DNA of 64,000 nucleotides from Sphingobium sp. 15-1. Its GTDB lineage: Bacteria; Pseudomonadota; Alphaproteobacteria; Sphingomonadales; Sphingomonadaceae. The DNA lies in assembly GCF_013375535.1 (NCBI RefSeq), contig NZ_JABXJG010000001.1, forward strand, positions 2,294,001-2,358,000. Reading direction: 5' to 3'. The position numbers were made by a program, and so were the translations under genes. Of this stretch, positions 1 to 44,121 are shown in pieces (positions within the stretch are counted from its first letter, which is position 1; the number at the start of each line of letters is the position of its first letter). The notes under the pieces are model-generated. The model worked only from the letters and a program-made list of their open reading frames with translations. It searched no databases and was not told the DNA's origin.

Positions 1-396
1 CACGCCGCCCAAGCCCAGCGCGGCGCCAAAACGGACCAGCGCCAATTGCAATGGAGAGCTGGTAAAGCCGGCAAGGATCGTAAAAGCAGCAAAGCAGAAC
101 GCCGCGCAGATGATGATCCGCCGCCTTCCGAACCGATCGCCCGCCTCACCAAGAATGAGCGATCCGGCAAGCATCCCTAGCATGGCCGCAGCAATGACGA
201 AGCCCATCGTTATCGGAGCGATGCCCCATAGCTTCATGAGCGAAGGCGCGACATAAGCGAGTGCGCTGAGGTCATAGGCGTCACATGCCATCAACAAGCC
301 GCAAATGCCGATCAGCCGGAAAAGCGGTGCGCCGACGCGCTGTTCATCGACCAACGTCTCGACGGCGATAGCAGGCGAGCCAGCAAGCGCGTTCAT
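1..396 (-). CDS. MFS transporter, N-terminal part (cut by window edge)
   Basis: About 132 N-terminal residues are visible; the rest lies left of the window. After a soluble start come hydrophobic helices, a CDAYDL stretch in the first helix like the D-G-x-D motif of the aromatic acid:H+ symporter family, and the loop motif GEAGDRFGRRR that marks major facilitator proteins. It probably imports an organic acid across the inner membrane. Its ATG overlaps the stop of the upstream dehydratase gene as ATGA (393-396), so translation is probably coupled and the transporter belongs to the same catabolic operon. The substrate cannot be read from this fragment; the subfamily assignment is inference. Confidence 0.8.
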   Translation of the reverse strand, partial: MNALAGSPAIAVETLVDEQRVGAPLFRLIGICGLLMACDAYDLSALAYVAPSLMKLWGIAPITMGFVIAAAMLGMLAGSLILGEAGDRFGRRRIIICAAFCFAAFTILAGFTSSPLQLALVRFGAALGLGGV

Positions 397-1586
397 GGAT
401 ATTCCTTCCGGTATCGTGCGAGAGCGGCTTCGTTCACAGTCACGCCCCAACCCGGGCGGTCGGGAAGAACCAGTGCGCCATTTTCGACCACGACCTCCTC
501 GAGAAGAAGCTCGCTCTTCCAGGGAACATCGTCCTGCTCAAACTCCATGATCCGGAAATTGGGTACAGCCGCCGAAAAATGTGCACTGATCATGTTGCCG
601 AGCGGACCATAGAAATTATGCGGCGCGACATTCACCTGAAATGTTTCCGCCAGCGCGGCGATCCGCACAGCTTCGGCAATCCCGTTCCACAAAATGTCGA
701 TGATCGCGACATCGACCGAGAATCGCTCGAAGAAGGGGCGGAATTGCCGCTGGCTATAGACGGCTTCGAGCGAGGCCACCGGCGTTGCAATGCGCCGGCG
801 TGTCTCAGCCAGGACGTCAGGCTCATGCATGTCGATTTCGAGCCAGCCAAGCCGGCTCGCCTCGCACGCTTCGCTCAGGCGAACGATCGCTTCGGGCACC
901 ATGCCGAAGCTCAGGTCCAGCATGATCTCGCCGTCCGGTCCGATACCGGCACGAAGCGCTTCCATCTGCCGCGCGATCAGACCCACCGTCCTTTCGTCGC
1001 AATGACCGCCCCAGACCAGCGATTTGGCCGACAGGCCGGTGGACCACCAGCGGGGATCGCTGTCCCGATCGAACAGCAGCGCATTGGTTTTCAAGGCGCT
1101 CCATCCCGCGCCCGCCGCATCGGCAGCAAGCTGGCTCAGATCGTCAAGCGACTTCAGCGTGCGAGGATCGCCGAACTTTTCGAAATAACCAGGCGCTGCA
1201 ACCCGGACGGTCCCGAAATGCGACCAATAAAGCGGGATACGGTGGCGGAACGCACCACCCAAAAGCGCATAGACAGGAATGCCCAGCGATTTCGCGCAAA
1301 TGTCAATGCAGGCATTCTCGATCGCCCCCAGCGCCTGCTGCATCGTGCCGCCCGCGACCATGCGCGTGGTCGCCCAGAGCTTTGTGACCAAAACACGGTA
1401 GGATCGCGGATCGGCACCGAGGCATAGTTCGCCGACTTTACGGATCACCTCTGTCAGTCCGGGCGCCCAACCCATCTGGCTGAATTCCGACCATCCCTCA
1501 TATCCATCGTCGGTCGTGATCTTCAAAAAGCTGAACGTGCGCCAACCGCCGTCGACATGAAAATCTTCGACTCTTACGACACGCAT
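393..1586 (-). CDS. Mandelate racemase/muconate lactonizing enzyme family protein (probable acid-sugar dehydratase)
   Basis: This 397-residue protein has the enolase-superfamily layout: an N-terminal capping domain and a C-terminal barrel. Visible candidate active-site residues are Lys166, metal ligands Asp224, Glu250 and Glu274, and a His323-Asp297 pair (motifs DLSFG, LEID, SLEA, APHNFYG). A His-Asp dyad with a single barrel lysine is typical of the mandelate racemase and sugar-acid dehydratase branches, not of muconate cycloisomerases, which use two lysines. It likely removes a proton next to a carboxylate, dehydrating a sugar acid or related hydroxy acid. It starts 3 nt after the dehydrogenase stop and overlaps the MFS gene. 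The substrate is unknown. Confidence 0.8.
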   Translation of the reverse strand: MRVVRVEDFHVDGGWRTFSFLKITTDDGYEGWSEFSQMGWAPGLTEVIRKVGELCLGADPRSYRVLVTKLWATTRMVAGGTMQQALGAIENACIDICAKSLGIPVYALLGGAFRHRIPLYWSHFGTVRVAAPGYFEKFGDPRTLKSLDDLSQLAADAAGAGWSALKTNALLFDRDSDPRWWSTGLSAKSLVWGGHCDERTVGLIARQMEALRAGIGPDGEIMLDLSFGMVPEAIVRLSEACEASRLGWLEIDMHEPDVLAETRRRIATPVASLEAVYSQRQFRPFFERFSVDVAIIDILWNGIAEAVRIAALAETFQVNVAPHNFYGPLGNMISAHFSAAVPNFRIMEFEQDDVPWKSELLLEEVVVENGALVLPDRPGWGVTVNEAALARYRKEYP

Positions 1587-1589
1587 GGC

Positions 1590-2555
1590 TCAGCCTATCG
1601 CCTCGCGCTCGAGCAGCGCGTCCAGATTGCGCCGCGCCGCCTCCGCCAGGCGCCCCGCCCCGGCACGGCTTCCCGCCGCGGCAATGTGCGGGGTGAAGAT
1701 CAGATTTGGCGCCGTCCACAAGGAATGGCCTGCAGGAAAGGGCTCGGGCGACACGACGTCCAAGGCCGCGCCGGCTAGCCGGCCGGACCTTAGCAGCGCT
1801 TCCAGCGCACCCAGGTCAACAATTTCGCCCCGCGCCACGTTCACAAAATAGCTTCCGGGCTGGAGCGCAGCCAAGAGATCGGCGTCGAACAGCCCTGCCG
1901 TCTCCGGAGCCAGGGCGATGGTCAGGATGAGGACGTCGCATTGCGACACCGCCTCCTCGAGCGCCGAGAGCGGCTTCACCAGTACGTCCCCATCCGAACC
2001 GCCAGCCGGCGGCGTGCGGGTTACTGCCGTGACGGCAGCGCCAAACGCCTTAAACAGCCGGGTGACGGCCTGTCCGATCGCACCATAGCCGACTACCAGG
2101 ACCTTTCGATCCTCCAGCGAAGCTATATGGGGCACCATCTCATGCCGGCTCCACAGCTGACTTTCCGTCAGCTTGAGTGAGCGAGGCAGCGCGCGCAAGG
2201 AAGCGAGCGTCAAGGCCAGCGCATGTTCGGCGACGATCGTGGCGGTTGCCGCCCCCGGCCCCGTGACCTTGACGCGATCCGGCAGACCAGCAGCCTCGAA
2301 GCCGTCCCGGCCTGCGCTCACGAAATGGAGTATCTCGACACTATTGCCAGGAAGGTTGAGCTTCGCAACGACCTGGCGGGCGATCTCCTCTGGCTGATCA
2401 TAGAGGACCAGTCCCTTGGCCCCGTCCATTGCCCGCAGCACTTCCTCGAGGCTGGAGCATATCTCGAAGTCGATTTCGGGCCGTCTCGCGAAGGCGCCGA
2501 TAATCTGATCTTTGGCAAGCCCGTAGGCCGCCCAGTATACGATCTTGGTAGGCAT
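1590..2555 (-). CDS. D-isomer-specific 2-hydroxyacid dehydrogenase family protein
   Basis: This 321-residue NAD(P)-dependent oxidoreductase has the Rossmann motif GYGAIG (156-161) and the expected catalytic triad Arg242 (NVARGE), Glu271 (SPEPF) and His290 (TPHIA). The family reversibly reduces 2-oxo acids to D-2-hydroxy acids. The frame is open further upstream, but the ATG at 2555 was chosen because an AGGAG ribosome site precedes it and the longer version would run into the receptor gene. It lies between the receptor and dehydratase genes with very short gaps, so it probably acts on the same imported compound or its 2-keto product. The exact substrate is not recognisable. Confidence 0.85.
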   Translation of the reverse strand: MPTKIVYWAAYGLAKDQIIGAFARRPEIDFEICSSLEEVLRAMDGAKGLVLYDQPEEIARQVVAKLNLPGNSVEILHFVSAGRDGFEAAGLPDRVKVTGPGAATATIVAEHALALTLASLRALPRSLKLTESQLWSRHEMVPHIASLEDRKVLVVGYGAIGQAVTRLFKAFGAAVTAVTRTPPAGGSDGDVLVKPLSALEEAVSQCDVLILTIALAPETAGLFDADLLAALQPGSYFVNVARGEIVDLGALEALLRSGRLAGAALDVVSPEPFPAGHSLWTAPNLIFTPHIAAAGSRAGAGRLAEAARRNLDALLEREAIG

Positions 2556-2635
2556 CGGATCTCCTGCAATGGATCGCAGCCGTATGTCATCGCCTGGTGC
2601 GCGGCGCGCCGGTTGGGATGCGCCGCTCGCTGGCA

Positions 2636-4807
2636 TCACATCTTGTAGCCCAAAGTGACTCCATAAGTGCGCGGCGCACCCGGGACGATGGAGTCGCCCA
2701 ACGATTGGGACGTCCAAGACACATAATATTTAGTCTTCGTCAGATTCTTCCCCCAAAGACGCACCGACCATTTCTCGCCCGGTTCCGTATAGCTGATCTG
2801 GCCGGACAGGAGATCATAACCGCGCTGGACCGAATGGCCATCCGGATCGAAATTGAAGCGCGAGCTGTGAAAATATGTCGCACTGAGAGCAAATTCGCCG
2901 ATCTGCGAAGGGATTTTGTAGTCAGCCGTCACGTTCGCCGAAAATTTCGGTGATCGGATCGTATCGAAACCAGATGCATCACCTCGCGTGACGATCAAGC
3001 CGCCGGCCGGATTGGGCGTGTAGAAGGGGGCATTCTGGAAACTGGTATAATGGCCGTCGAGAAAGCTGCCGGCCGCCCTGAGCGTGAACCGGTTATTGAC
3101 GAAACGCGGAACCCAGGTCGACTCGAAATCCAGCCCCTTGATCTTGGCTCCCGCAGCATTGATGATGACCGGCGTACCCACCTGAACGATGATGAGTTGA
3201 ATATCCCGATAATTATAGTGGAATGCGGACACGTTGAGTTGAAGCTGCCGGTCGAACAGGCTGGATTTCACGCCGACCTCGAAAGCATCCATTTTCTCGG
3301 GACGCACGGGAGGCGCCGTGAAGCTTTGCGACGCATATTGGGCTGACTTATATCCGCGGCTGTAGCTGCCATAGACCATGATGCCCTCCGTCAGATCTTG
3401 ATCGAGGGCAAGCCTCCAGGTTGGGACTTTATAGGTGTCATCCTGAGTGGCGAAGCGGATGTTGGAGCCGGCAGGCACCGATGTGTTCCCGGCAGCCGCC
3501 ACGTCCCGTCCGGCGACCGAAATCTTGTCGATCGTATAGCGGGCGCCGACGGTCAGCCGCGTCGAAGGCGTGAGCTTGGCCGTTCCCTGAGCGAAGACCG
3601 CATAGGAGGAAAGCCCTTGGTTGACGAAGCGATCCAGCCGTTGCGCGCCCAGGGTGGCACTGCGGATTTGGATAGGAAGGCTCTTGGCCGCCGAGTTCAT
3701 ATAGAAGACGCCGGCGGTGTAATCGAGCCAGTCCGAATGCCCTCCAACGGTAATTTCCTGCTGAAACGTATCGGTGGCTTCTGCGAAAACCGCGTCGATG
3801 ACCGGCGCGGGCGTCACGTCCTGGTCGAAATTGGCGCGGCTCTTCACATAACGGAAGGCGCTGAGGCTGGTCAGGGTCAACGTCCCCAGATCCTGCTCGA
3901 TCTTCAGCCCTACACCCCATTGCGGGGCGCGGACTTTCGTGGGCAAATTGATCTGCGTATCGTAAATCGAGCCACGCTGCGGCACGCCGCCAATCGCCAG
4001 GGTGCCCGGCGCAATTGTCTTCACCTGCCCAGCGTCATTATGGTTGTTACTATAGTCGCCGGTCAGCGTCACCTTCGTATCGTCGCCCGGGCGCCACATG
4101 AGCTTGCTGCGCAAGGCGACTTCGCGGCGAAAATAGGCGTCGGCGCCGGTCACGAGATTAGTCCCGAAGCCATCACCCTGATGCGTGCCATACAGGCTGA
4201 AATCCAGCGCCAGATTGTCCGTGAGGCCGGTGGAAGCATAAGCCGAGCCGGTGAATGTCTTATAATTCCCATAGCCAATATTGGCTTCCATCGTTGGTGT
4301 GAACGAAGGATCGCGCGTGATGATGTGGATGAGGCCGCCCGTCGCATTCCGGCCGAACAATGTTCCCTGCGGCCCCTTGATGACTTCGATCCGCTCGACA
4401 TTGTTTAGAGCGAACAAGCCTGCGGCTGGCGCGGCATAGTTGACCCCATCGACATAGATGGCGACGGCGCCGGAGCCGCCGATGTCGCCGCTCTGGGTGC
4501 CGACCCCGCGCAGATAAGGCGTGACCGACGCACGTGACATGGTCATGATGAGCCCCGGCGCAACCGCAGGCAGTGATCCTACGTCCGCCACCCCGCTGCG
4601 CGCGAGGCTGGCCCCGCTTATTGCTGCAACGGCAATGGGCACCTTCTGAAGCGATTCGCCGCGACGCTGGGCCGTCACCACGATATCCTCTACACCCGCA
4701 GCCTGCTTCGCCGATGCGGCGCCGGATGGCGTCTGTGCGAGCGTATGGGCCGGCAACGCCGTCACAAGTGCAGTGGTGAAGACCAGCCGTTTCAGCATCA
4801 CGTTCAC
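2636..4807 (-). CDS. TonB-dependent outer-membrane receptor
   Basis: This 723-residue protein has a signal peptide (about residues 1-24, ending ALPAHTLAQ), a TonB-box-like stretch (EDIVVTAQRR, 40-49), a plug domain to about 165 and a beta barrel ending in a typical aromatic/Met C-terminus (GYKM). It should import a ligand across the outer membrane using TonB energy. The start is GTG at 4807: AAGGAGG at 4813-4819 is spaced 5 nt from it, whereas the ATG at 4798 is 14 nt away. It is the first gene of the leftward catabolic cluster, so its ligand is probably the substrate of the dehydrogenase and dehydratase. Sphingomonads often use such receptors for oligosaccharides or aromatics; which applies here is unknown. 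Confidence 0.9.
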   Translation of the reverse strand: MNVMLKRLVFTTALVTALPAHTLAQTPSGAASAKQAAGVEDIVVTAQRRGESLQKVPIAVAAISGASLARSGVADVGSLPAVAPGLIMTMSRASVTPYLRGVGTQSGDIGGSGAVAIYVDGVNYAAPAAGLFALNNVERIEVIKGPQGTLFGRNATGGLIHIITRDPSFTPTMEANIGYGNYKTFTGSAYASTGLTDNLALDFSLYGTHQGDGFGTNLVTGADAYFRREVALRSKLMWRPGDDTKVTLTGDYSNNHNDAGQVKTIAPGTLAIGGVPQRGSIYDTQINLPTKVRAPQWGVGLKIEQDLGTLTLTSLSAFRYVKSRANFDQDVTPAPVIDAVFAEATDTFQQEITVGGHSDWLDYTAGVFYMNSAAKSLPIQIRSATLGAQRLDRFVNQGLSSYAVFAQGTAKLTPSTRLTVGARYTIDKISVAGRDVAAAGNTSVPAGSNIRFATQDDTYKVPTWRLALDQDLTEGIMVYGSYSRGYKSAQYASQSFTAPPVRPEKMDAFEVGVKSSLFDRQLQLNVSAFHYNYRDIQLIIVQVGTPVIINAAGAKIKGLDFESTWVPRFVNNRFTLRAAGSFLDGHYTSFQNAPFYTPNPAGGLIVTRGDASGFDTIRSPKFSANVTADYKIPSQIGEFALSATYFHSSRFNFDPDGHSVQRGYDLLSGQISYTEPGEKWSVRLWGKNLTKTKYYVSWTSQSLGDSIVPGAPRTYGVTLGYKM

Positions 4808-4875
4808 ATTCCCCTCCTTCTGTCCTTATCCTTTTTTTATCCCAATGGACGGCGTTTGCAAGCTTCTTTTGTCCT

Positions 4876-4897
4876 ATTGGACAATATATTGTTCAAT
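4876..4897. promoter_or_regulatory. 22-bp near-perfect palindrome upstream of the receptor gene (candidate operator)
   Basis: The two 11-nt halves ATTGGACAATA and TATTGTTCAAT match except at one base pair. The site lies about 70 bp upstream of the receptor start in an AT-rich patch that contrasts with its surroundings, and a second CAATGGAC motif occurs near 4853. Dyads of this size are typical of GntR- or IclR-type repressors. No regulator gene is visible in the window, so this is inference from symmetry and position. Confidence 0.45.
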
Positions 4898-5495
4898 TGG
4901 CGGAAATGTGGGAATTGTGCATATGCATACGCTCGCTCCGCCTTCGCATATCGGCGCTTTTGGACAGTCAGCGCCGGAACGCTGCTGCTTAAAGAAGGTA
5001 AGGAAGGCGATCGTCGCCGGCATCTGGAGCCAACATGCTCCCGGACCGACCGACCGCTTGCTTAATAAATCAAGGGGTAGCCAGCCAAGGCCCGCAATTT
5101 CCGGCGGGTGCTACGGGAGCTGTTCGCCAGTCGCTGTTCATTAGAAGAAAACGAAGCCGAGCGGGCAATGTCGCGTCGCCCCCGGCGTCTCCCGGGGCTG
5201 GACGACCGGGCAGAGCGGCCACGACCGCTGGATCCGCTAAATGGGGCAATATCGGGCATATTTTCGCGAAACGATTGCGCTTAAGCAGCGCTGGGGGACC
5301 GGGAGGCGAAGAACGCCAGTTCCTTCCTGAAGCATCACCTGCTCCCGGAGGGGTACAGCGATCTTGCGGTATTGCTGATGACAGGTAGGCTTGCCTGAAA
5401 GAATGGCTCTCGGGGTGATGGAGATCCAATTTGTGCGGCCAAGAGGGCGCGAAGCTGCCGTTGAACTGAGACCTCTGCTTTCCGTGTATCCAGCC

Positions 5496-5540
5496 GTGTA
5501 CACACAGAGCGCATATCGTGATGAAACGCCCTGTGTACAC
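5496..5540. promoter_or_regulatory. Pair of GTGTACAC palindromes 37 bp apart
   Basis: The 8-bp palindrome GTGTACAC occurs at 5496-5503 and again at 5533-5540. It lies in the gene-poor strip about 100 bp left of the tRNA-Val fragment. Two identical symmetric sites about 3.5 helical turns apart could bind a dimeric regulator or an accessory recombination protein. No function can be assigned. Confidence 0.25.
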
Positions 5541-5635
5541 GTGAATAGTTCATTATCTCGCACACCGCAGCTAACCGCGATAGACCCTCTGCTCATGAAA
5601 TTTTATGATATGTTTTGATAATTATATTACGCCGA

Positions 5636-5680
5636 TTTACACCGAGAATGTCGGCGGTTCGAGCCCGTCATCGCCCACCA
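5636..5680 (+). other. 3' fragment of tRNA-Val(TAC), probable attachment site of an integrated element
   Basis: The sequence carries the end of the anticodon loop with TAC, the 3' anticodon stem, a variable loop, a complete T arm (GGCGG-TTCGAGC-CCGTC), a 3' acceptor strand ATCGCCC, the discriminator A and an encoded CCA. It resembles the 3' half of bacterial tRNA-Val(TAC). The DNA to its left is AT-rich and cannot form the D arm or 5' acceptor strand, so this is not a working tRNA. Tyrosine integrases commonly use such 3' halves, leaving one copy at the far end of the element. The tRNA reads rightward, so the intact gene should lie left of the window and the island between. Confidence 0.8.
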
Positions 5681-5771
5681 CGCCCCCTCCCCTTTGAGAA
5701 ATCTGTTCCCGCCAGGGTTGGAATGACGTAAGGTCCGGCGCAACGGAATGCTTTGGTGAGGCACTTGCATC

Positions 5772-5945
5772 ATGTCTCTCACGCTTCTCTTCACTGCTGC
5801 GATAGCGCCTTTGCTGCTGATCCTGTCGCCGGTTTCGCTGGCGACCGCCCGCGATTGCTTGGATTGGGACGCGCCGGCCAAGGCCGTGGACATTGCGGTG
5901 GAAAAGCCCTGCCCGAAAAAGAAGCCGCCGCTTCTGTTGATGTAA
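5772..5945 (+). CDS. Small secreted or membrane protein, 57 residues
   Basis: The frame encodes a hydrophobic N-terminus (residues 1-24, with SPVSLATA resembling a signal-peptidase site), then a short tail with two cysteines (RDCLDW, KPCPKKK). A GGTGAGG ribosome-like site lies 13 nt upstream. It sits directly after the tRNA fragment and before the zinc-finger gene. No family is recognised; it could be a small periplasmic or membrane-bound protein. Confidence 0.5.
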   Translation: MSLTLLFTAAIAPLLLILSPVSLATARDCLDWDAPAKAVDIAVEKPCPKKKPPLLLM

Positions 5946-6001
5946 GCGCCCTTCGCCACGGATATTGCGGCGCAACGCCAGCGCTGCTAATCGGTGGCGC
6001 C

Positions 6002-6229
6002 ATGATCCAGCCGCCTGAAATCATCCGAGTCACCAAGTCCCGCGTCTCCTGCGACGGTTCGGGCGACATTCCCGCCGCGCTTGGCCATCCGCGCGTCTTC
6101 CTTGAGATTGACGAGCATGGCTATGTCGACTGCGGCTATTGCGACCGCCGCTTCGTGCTGGCCGGCAGCGTGGCCGACACGCCGGAAATCGCCGGGCTGC
6201 CGGATATTTCCTCGGGCGCCAGTCTTTAA
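6002..6229 (+). CDS. CHCC-type zinc-finger domain protein (NDUFS6-like)
   Basis: This 75-residue protein has Cys17, His29, Cys44 and Cys47, the CHCC zinc-binding pattern of the zf-CHCC family (SCDG, GHPRVFLEI, YVDCGYCDRRF). In alphaproteobacteria this domain occurs alone and is related to the complex I accessory subunit NDUFS6. The length matches the family. Start ATG at 6002 gives the conserved N-terminus (PPEIIRVTK). A palindromic terminator-like repeat follows at 6251. Confidence 0.9.
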   Translation: MIQPPEIIRVTKSRVSCDGSGDIPAALGHPRVFLEIDEHGYVDCGYCDRRFVLAGSVADTPEIAGLPDISSGASL

Positions 6230-6250
6230 GCACGACAATCCCATTTAAAT

Positions 6251-6278
6251 CGTCATTCCCGCGAAGGCGGGCATGACG
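6251..6278. repeat. Short palindromic repeat, terminator-like
   Basis: Arms CGTCAT-TCCCGC and GCGGG-C-ATGACG fold around a GAAG loop, and CTTTTTT follows at about 6285. It lies between the zinc-finger gene and tldD and could terminate the former. Palindromes of this composition are widespread intergenic elements in alphaproteobacteria. Confidence 0.6.
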
Positions 6279-6328
6279 GAAATGCTTTTTTGATTGGGCT
6301 TAGTCTCTGCCGCTCCTATATCGGCGGC

Positions 6329-7771
6329 ATGACCGAAGCTGCTCCCCAGTTCACCGACGCCCGCGGCCTGCTTTACCGGCCCGGCCTGCTCGATCCCGAC
6401 GGCGCGCGCCGCCTGACCGCCGAGGCGCTGAAAAGCTGCGACGATGGCGAACTGTACCTGCAATATCGGGCGAGCGAGAGCTTCGGCTTCGATGACGGGC
6501 GGCTGAAGACTGCCGACTATTCGACCGATGCGGGCTTTGGCCTGCGCGGCGTGTCGGGCGAGATGACCGGTTTCGCCCATGCCAACGACATCAGCGAAGC
6601 CGCGATCCGCCGCGCCGCCGAGACGCTGACGCTGCTCGATCCGGCCAAAGGCCAGCCCGCGCCGCCGCCGCAGCACACCAACCGCCATCTCTATACCGAC
6701 GTCAATCCGCTGGAGATCGTGCCCTTTGCCGAGAAGGTGACGCTCTGCGCCGCCATCGACGCCGCTGCCCGCGCCCGCGATCCGCGCGTCGCGCAGGTGT
6801 CGGTAAGCCTGGCGGGTAGCTGGTCGGTGGTCGAGATCGTGCGAGCGGATGGCTTCACCGCGACCGACATTCGGCCGCTCGTGCGGCTCAACGTCTCCGT
6901 CATCCTGGAGGAGAATGGCCGCCGCGAGACAGGCGTGTTCGGCATTGGCGGGCGCTACCTCTATGACGAGGTGATGGACCCCGCCATCTGGAACCGCGCC
7001 ATTGACGAGGCGCTCGCGCAGGCGCGGGTCAATTTGCGCTCCGTGGCGGCGCCCGCCGGGGAGATGACCGTGCTGCTCGGACCGGGCTGGCCGGGCGTGC
7101 TGGTGCATGAAGCCATTGGGCACGGTCTGGAGGGCGACTTCAACCGCAAGGGCACCAGCGCCTTTTCCGGCCGCGTGGGCCAGCGGGTCGCGGCGCCCGG
7201 CGTCACCGTGGTCGACGACGGATCGATCATGAGCCGGCGCGGCTCCCTCTCCATCGATGACGAGGGCACGCCGACCCGCGAGAATGTGCTGATCGAGGAC
7301 GGCATCCTCAAGGGCTATATGCAGGACCGGCTGAACGCCCGGCTGATGGGCGTGGAGCCGACCGGCAACGGCCGCCGCGAAAGCTATGCCCATGCGCCGA
7401 TGCCGCGCATGACCAACACCTTCATCAAGGGCGGACAGGACGATCCGGAAGAACTGCTCAGCCGGATGAAGTCGGGCATTTTCGCGAAAAGCTTCGGCGG
7501 CGGGCAGGTCGACATCGTGTCGGGCAAGTTCGTCTTCTCCTGCACCGAGGCGTACAAGGTCGAGAATGGCAAGCTGGGCGAGCCGATCAAGGGCGCGACG
7601 CTGATCGGGGACGGGCCGACGGCGCTGACCAAGGTGATCGGCATCGGCAATGACTGGGCGCTGGACGAAGGCATCGGCATGTGCGGCAAGGCCGGGCAGA
7701 GCGTGCCTGCGGGCGTGGGCCAGCCGACGCTGCTGATGGAGGGCCTTACCGTCGGCGGCACGGCGACCTGA
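6329..7771 (+). CDS. tldD: Metalloprotease TldD
   Basis: This 480-residue protein has the characteristic zinc motif HEAIGH at residues 260-265 followed by GLEGDFNRKG. TldD works with TldE/PmbA as a peptidase that trims precursor peptides such as microcins and degrades the CcdA antitoxin; in most bacteria its main role is peptide turnover in the cytoplasm. The ATG at 6329 was preferred to an open extension starting at 6290 because the protein then begins with the normal family N-terminus. tldE is not in the window. Confidence 0.93.
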   Translation: MTEAAPQFTDARGLLYRPGLLDPDGARRLTAEALKSCDDGELYLQYRASESFGFDDGRLKTADYSTDAGFGLRGVSGEMTGFAHANDISEAAIRRAAETLTLLDPAKGQPAPPPQHTNRHLYTDVNPLEIVPFAEKVTLCAAIDAAARARDPRVAQVSVSLAGSWSVVEIVRADGFTATDIRPLVRLNVSVILEENGRRETGVFGIGGRYLYDEVMDPAIWNRAIDEALAQARVNLRSVAAPAGEMTVLLGPGWPGVLVHEAIGHGLEGDFNRKGTSAFSGRVGQRVAAPGVTVVDDGSIMSRRGSLSIDDEGTPTRENVLIEDGILKGYMQDRLNARLMGVEPTGNGRRESYAHAPMPRMTNTFIKGGQDDPEELLSRMKSGIFAKSFGGGQVDIVSGKFVFSCTEAYKVENGKLGEPIKGATLIGDGPTALTKVIGIGNDWALDEGIGMCGKAGQSVPAGVGQPTLLMEGLTVGGTAT

Positions 7772-43990: not shown

Positions 43991-44100
43991 AAACCCGCCG
44001 GAACACCCCAGCCCGGTTGATTTTTGCCGCCTCATCCCCTATCCTCCCCCTCGCGGACCGGGCCCCTCTGGCGCGCTTTTCCCAGCGCGTGATGTCGGAC

Positions 44101-44121
44101 CGCATCGGATCATCCGATGCG
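44101..44121 (+). promoter_or_regulatory. Perfect 8-bp hairpin in the TerC leader
   Basis: CGCATCGG and CCGATGCG pair around ATCAT, about 85 nt before the TerC ATG. Some TerC/Alx genes carry a manganese-responsive leader, but its conserved sequence was not found. The hairpin may be a leader structure or the end of an upstream element. Confidence 0.35.

Follow-up and report, generated by a model that had tools for sequence, protein, structure and literature searches.

A 24.1-kb catabolic island with a probable history of decay at tRNA-Val(TAC) in Sphingobium sp. 15-1

The window analysed here, a 64,000-bp stretch of the Sphingobium sp. 15-1 genome (G000:C1:2294001-2358000; the whole genome, G000, had 5.8 Mb in three contigs), contained near its left end a displaced 3′ half of tRNA-Val(TAC), and an intact tRNA-Val(TAC) gene situated leftward at G000:C1:2275428-2275503 carried an exact copy of these 45 bp as its 3′ end. 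The two copies lay 24,177 bp apart, and the DNA enclosed by them began about 18.5 kb to the left of the window's first base. We put a probability of about 0.95 on this DNA being a 24.1-kb genomic island that was inserted by site-specific recombination at tRNA-Val(TAC) and later decayed. The first-pass annotation of the window had taken its left 5.7 kb for the end of such an island, and this was borne out: the island spanned from the tRNA gene to 5680. Two features marked its right end:

5636..5680, + strand: displaced 3′ half of tRNA-Val(TAC), tRNA positions 32-76, core of the right attachment site (attR); exact 45-bp match to the intact gene
5484..5503, + strand: tandem repeat GTGTATCC-AGCC-GTGTACAC, putative arm-type integrase sites, 132 bp before the core; pair-pattern match, with a counterpart at 131 bp in the genus relative G009

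With up to three mismatches allowed, the 45-mer had exactly two copies in the genome, both exact and both on the + strand, and its reversed control pattern had none at the same tolerance. ARAGORN and Rfam (at gathering threshold) called no tRNA at 5636-5680, so this was a fragment without a 5′ half, exactly as the first-pass annotation had read it; the end of the half at 5680 had also been placed correctly, with identity between the two copies covering exactly 45 bp and stopping there on both sides, and the intact gene expected to the left was the one reached by the leftward check, its 3′ end matching at 45/45 positions. An intact tRNA gene and a same-strand displaced 3′-end fragment, the pair of features expected of a tRNA-integrated island, were both present. 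By our reading of the alignment, the repeat began at tRNA position 32, the first anticodon-loop base, and the site was therefore anticodon-centred, i.e., Islander type A, a type given for 2083 of 3919 candidates in the Islander paper (PMC4383910). The C-terminal residues GSNRRHSRCKSA and GLEPPTFSV of minus-strand open frames at 5627-5975 were encoded by the strand opposite the tRNA half; these frames are probably not genes.

When 40 relatives (24 of the same genus) were searched at the DNA level with window 5636-7000, loci over the right flank were obtained. ARAGORN found an intact tRNA-Val(TAC) in 17 of the 24 same-genus loci, about 0.4 kb or less upstream of the zf-CHCC/tldD match, and the sequence left of the Sphingobium sp. 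15-1 tRNA was homologous in 15 of these 17 loci with empty layout. In three of the relatives (G008, G012, and G024), base-by-base alignment to the joined flanks of the island displayed left flank, tRNA, and right flank as continuous, with nothing between. The empty site foreseen by the first-pass annotation was thus found, by adjacent layout in 17/24 relatives and by alignment in three; tldD was rightly named as a core gene right of the junction, since zf-CHCC/tldD followed the intact tRNA in relatives, and glnK, placed further right, was recognised by a P-II match in Pfam. Across 94 genus genomes, the half was present in two copies in 2 (G000 and G001), in one copy in 90, and in none in 2.

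The island displayed the following order from left to right: 253 bp, then insertion sequence IS21 (istB and istA; 2275757-2278319), then an acyl-CoA ligase; then an RraA-type aldolase, an amidohydrolase, a LigB-type dioxygenase, two further RraA-type proteins, and TetR; then an NAD-dependent epimerase, a thiolase, a short-chain dehydrogenase, a zinc alcohol dehydrogenase, an aldehyde dehydrogenase, and an FAD oxidoreductase. The right part of the cargo, composed of major facilitator superfamily (MFS) transporter, enolase-superfamily protein, D-2-hydroxyacid dehydrogenase, and TonB receptor, was the cluster that had been assigned to the inside of the element, and it was indeed located between the two tRNA copies. 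This part and the adjoining right flank were represented in the window as follows:

1..450, − strand: 5′ part of an MFS transporter gene that extended left beyond the window (Pfam MFS_1)
393..1586, − strand: enolase-superfamily, sugar-acid dehydratase-like protein (Pfam MR_MLE_C and MR_MLE_N)
1590..2717, − strand: D-2-hydroxyacid dehydrogenase-like protein (Pfam 2-Hacid_dh_C)
2636..4807, − strand: TonB-dependent receptor (Pfam TonB_dep_Rec_b-barrel and Plug)
6002..6229, + strand: zf-CHCC protein, outside the island, encoded by the gene nearest to the junction on its right side that Pfam recognised (PF10276)
6290..7771, + strand: tldD of the right flank, outside the island (Pfam PmbA_TldD domains)

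The enolase-superfamily protein stayed under the NCBIfam cut-offs, with gluconate/galactonate dehydratase as the nearest family. The nearest solved structures of the amidohydrolase by sequence were 2,2′,3-trihydroxy-3′-methoxy-5,5′-dicarboxybiphenyl meta-cleavage compound hydrolase and 4-oxalomesaconate hydratase, which we take to be LigY and LigJ, respectively; the first RraA protein was nearest to 4-carboxy-4-hydroxy-2-oxoadipate aldolase, below the NCBIfam cut-off, and for the LigB-type dioxygenase a sequence comparison at E 0.001 found no relative of solved structure. By these sequence likenesses, the cargo may have a role in aromatic meta-cleavage. Two further observations concerned the DNA outside the island: a palindromic repeat of GTCATTCCCGCGAAGGCGGGCATGAC type at 6239-6284 had many matches in the Sphingobium sp. 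15-1 genome and its relatives, and a terC RNA, belonging to a cis-regulatory RNA family, was located at 44050-44107 (61.4 bits vs gathering score 39.9).

A relative of the LigB-type dioxygenase was present in 76 loci, among which the module was syntenic at 56-89% identity in two Niveispirillum metagenome-assembled genomes (L073, with the contig ending before TetR, and L074) and in Novosphingobium sp. Leaf2 (L075, without the ligase). By the plasmid and genome records in which relatives of its IS21 and cargo occur, the host would be a sphingomonad-like alphaproteobacterium. The first 5.7 kb of the 21.3-kb cargo were searched for in the 94 genus genomes, with three candidates scored per genome, and among the matches listed those outside the island's own copy covered at most 965 bases at 65-87% identity. 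The tetranucleotide distance to core DNA was 0.18-0.23 for four 5-kb cargo windows vs 0.12-0.16 for 11 core windows. The island accordingly displayed foreign composition together with patchy distribution, the latter as covered by the first 5.7 kb of cargo.

A tandem GTGTAYMC pair with a 3-4 bp spacer was present at both island ends. The strict pair pattern had two matches in the 5.8-Mb genome, one per island end, and among 396 other genomes of the family it matched in one, G130, where it followed a tRNA-Pro(TGG) by 69 bp; the relaxed pattern had six matches in five of the 94 genus genomes, G000 (twice), G525, G565, G568, and G009, all at tRNA-Val(TAC). The left pair started exactly 67 bp after the CCA in G000, G525, G565, and G568 and also in L241, an IMG/VR viral contig at tRNA-Val(TAC) with a different upstream gene, and by eye the DNA between the CCA and this pair was diverged except for a hairpin-like stretch; the right pair preceded the core, from which its end was 132 bp away in G000 and 131 bp in G009. 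Fixed spacing with changing sequence is what arm-type integrase sites would display, and the pairs are perhaps such sites. Another viral-contig motif match (L232) was set aside, since it fell within a coding frame and its locus had no tRNA, and the viral contigs gave no match to the right-end pattern.

The first-pass annotation had also expected a tyrosine integrase beside the tRNA, and here it failed: none was found there or elsewhere in the element, and IS21 occupied this place instead. PF00589 had 21 matches across the genome and none in 2275504-2299635; tblastn against the island, with 67 frames taken from integrase loci as queries, identified no integrase (best E 0.046); these were the two longest frames per locus, and some of them may not be integrases. 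No integrase being found inside, as an active and autonomous island would need, the element was an island by its scars rather than an autonomous active one. IS21 lay 253 bp from the tRNA, with its ends set by alignment to plasmid copies of 91% identity in Sphingomonas sp. MM-1 and Sphingobium sp. TKS. The bases flanking its two ends did not match each other (by eye), indicating that it had no target duplication; on its left an open frame with a plausible ribosome-binding site was cut by the IS after about 20 codons, and on its right the stop codon of the CoA ligase was 1 bp away. Because an IS21 without target duplication interrupted an open frame beside the tRNA, an IS-linked rearrangement is likely, and IS-linked deletion or cargo entry is the simplest account of the missing integrase. 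IS21 transposase is not known to be a tRNA-targeting integrase.

The 20-codon frame (L003:7699-7758) found nothing by tblastn against plasmids, by pattern search of viral contigs, or in Pfam, and tblastn in 196 genomes of the order returned its own match only; a resemblance to the start of a phospholipase D-like helicase is not claimed. Searched as DNA in 397 family genomes with two candidates scored per genome, the left 253 bp of the island matched its own genome only, and the right 806 bp gave, besides the match to its own genome, four that were short and weak (E 1.5e-4 to 6.9e-4); Pfam on the open reading frames (ORFs) of the right end gave nothing convincing.

The preferred course of events would be as follows. 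The 24.1-kb island would have entered the single-copy tRNA-Val(TAC) gene by site-specific recombination in its anticodon loop. The island would have carried its own 3′ half (positions 32-76), restoring the tRNA gene at the left junction and displacing the original 3′ half to 5636-5680. The agent of insertion was presumably a tyrosine integrase, on account of the tandem repeats placed at fixed distances from the core at the ends and of this recombinase family being the only one known to target tRNA genes, as stated in PMC4383910. Decay would have followed: IS21 cut a frame, had no target duplication, and abutted the cargo, which suggests that recombination linked to IS21 either removed what had been the left part, possibly together with the integrase, or carried the cargo in. 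This cargo would start with a module resembling aromatic meta-cleavage (CoA ligase, RraA-type aldolases, LigY/LigJ-like hydrolase, LigB-type dioxygenase, and TetR) and continue with dehydrogenases, thiolase, MFS, sugar-acid-type enzymes, and TonB receptor. On its own, the element is probably not mobile.

Several points weighed against this reading. Seven of the 24 same-genus relatives lacked the simple empty-site layout; G001 and G009 were occupied, with the truncated half adjoining tldD, and tRNA and tldD lay apart in G004, G006, G007, G017, and G021. The one copy of the half in G009 was the truncated one, and no intact tRNA-Val(TAC) gene was found in this draft of about 90 contigs. No integrase was found in the island, so the agent of insertion could only be inferred. 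Cargo pieces at 65-68% identity were present in G012 (C20) and a few other genus genomes, and distant versions of the module therefore exist in the genus. The reversed control was commoner than the motif, with nine matches in seven genomes vs three for the strict pattern in the 397 family genomes and 12 matches in 10 genomes vs six for the relaxed pattern in the 94 genus genomes; it was thus the placement of the real matches, not their frequency, that was non-random, and the arm-site reading rested on position and spacing. G525, G565, and G568 had only one copy of the half each.

The history could also be told in two steps, in which an older tRNA-Val island, with arms at both ends and its first frame broken, would have received the catabolic block later with or through IS21. 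This account differs from the preferred one in the order of events only, and we give it slightly less than an even chance: it is favoured by the position of an IS21 without target duplication between the old left end and the cargo, by the 91% identity of the IS21 copies on sphingomonad plasmids, and by the quite different genes that follow ends of this kind in other genomes, but the same facts fit one cargo-bearing island partly removed by IS21, and no intermediate genome was found. It is unlikely that the element is still movable as a cis-mobilisable one through a related integrase acting in trans. The core and putative arm sites at both ends and the 21 PF00589 matches elsewhere in the genome would allow this, but none of these 21 integrases was linked to the tRNA-Val attachment type, and no GTGTAYMC pair was detected within about 1.5 kb on either side of integrase matches in G000, G009, and the relatives of the G001-type integrase. 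Ordinary local duplication or gene conversion of the tRNA half, with no mobile element, has nothing in its favour beyond the repeat itself. The empty sites in relatives contradicted it, the atypical cargo, the motifs specific to the ends, and the integrase-bearing second occupied relative also spoke against it, and we regard it as very improbable.

The island is a clear example of what an integrase-based finder would reject. The island type itself is well known; the parts worth keeping are the shared end geometry and the question of which integrase uses it. The ends of this catabolic island are now fixed to the single base in its own genome, and insertions at tRNA-Val(TAC) beside tldD have happened more than once within the genus. 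The G009 element (L058 1154-19399), located at the same tRNA-Val/tldD site, carried a HerA-like ATPase, a subtilase, and a trypsin-like protein and is possibly a defence island; the DNA behind the left end opened with an HNH endonuclease in G568 and contained a DDE transposase plus catalase in G565. In both G565 and G568, no integrase was found in about 34.7 kb inward from the tRNA (phmmer, integrase-locus frames, E up to 1e-3) or by Pfam on four and five ORFs, respectively. The island thus seems to be one of a family of elements alike in their ends and unlike in their contents. A rather doubtful extension would be that these ends define the family by a fixed attachment geometry, in which the left arm pair follows the tRNA-Val CCA by 67 bp and the right one precedes the core by 131-132 bp, with varying contents (catabolism; HNH endonuclease; HerA-like ATPase with proteases), and that its members are perhaps moved in trans by an integrase encoded elsewhere, because no integrase was found behind the left ends where searched. 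The conserved spacing of the end motifs offers a handle for finding relatives and, in time, the integrase.

Cis-mobilisable elements (CIMEs) are flanked by attachment sites, lack recombination genes of their own, and are mobilised by a related autonomous element. Attachment sites flanked the island, and no recombination genes of its own were found; related ends were present in G009, G525, G565, and G568, with no integrase linked to them. The nearest comparison within the genus was the 9.3-kb prophage remnant of G001 (L057 1276-10552), which carried P22-like coat and stabilisation genes and shared with the island the same tRNA-Val(TAC), the same 45-bp repeat (49-bp match there), and tldD on the right, but differed from it in its size, its phage head genes, its integrase beside the tRNA, and the absence of the GTGTAYMC motif from L057. 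Its integrase gene (404 aa, divergent, ending 18 bp from the tRNA) was under the PF00589 cut-off and had a PHROG integrase match at E 2e-24; this remnant with an integrase at tRNA-Val(TAC) indicates that the site is in use, and a tRNA-Val, -Gly, or -Pro gene was present in 17 of the 20 genus loci fetched with this integrase or its relatives. The circular 57-kb plasmid MesoLjLa5 of Mesorhizobium sp. L-2-11 (L243 4001-5206) likewise carried a 45-bp tRNA-Val(TAC) 3′ half without a 5′ half, identical at 43 of 45 positions, which is an attP; unlike in the island, a site-specific integrase gene adjoined this half, and no GTGTAYMC-type half-motif was found within 500 bp. Of the three plasmid hits of the 45-mer that were inspected, the other two (L242 and L244) were rejected as attachment-site fragments, both being intact tRNA-Val genes.

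A literature search on sphingomonad tRNA-Val islands, anticodon-loop integration, arm-type sites, integrase-less islands, and the motif found, among the entries listed (8 of 13 for the motif), none naming this island or its motif. As PMC4383910 describes them, Islander islands resemble the present one in having an intact tRNA gene at one end and a same-orientation 3′ fragment at the other, a size of 2-200 kb, and type A; they differ in that Islander rejects candidates without an integrase, and none was found here. According to PMC3516476, pPDL2, an integrative mobilisable element of Sphingobium fuliginis, is likewise a sphingomonad element with catabolic cargo and recombines with a cloned attB that derives from a tRNA gene's 3′ end; unlike the island, it targets tRNA-Ser, has an integrase, and is a plasmid.

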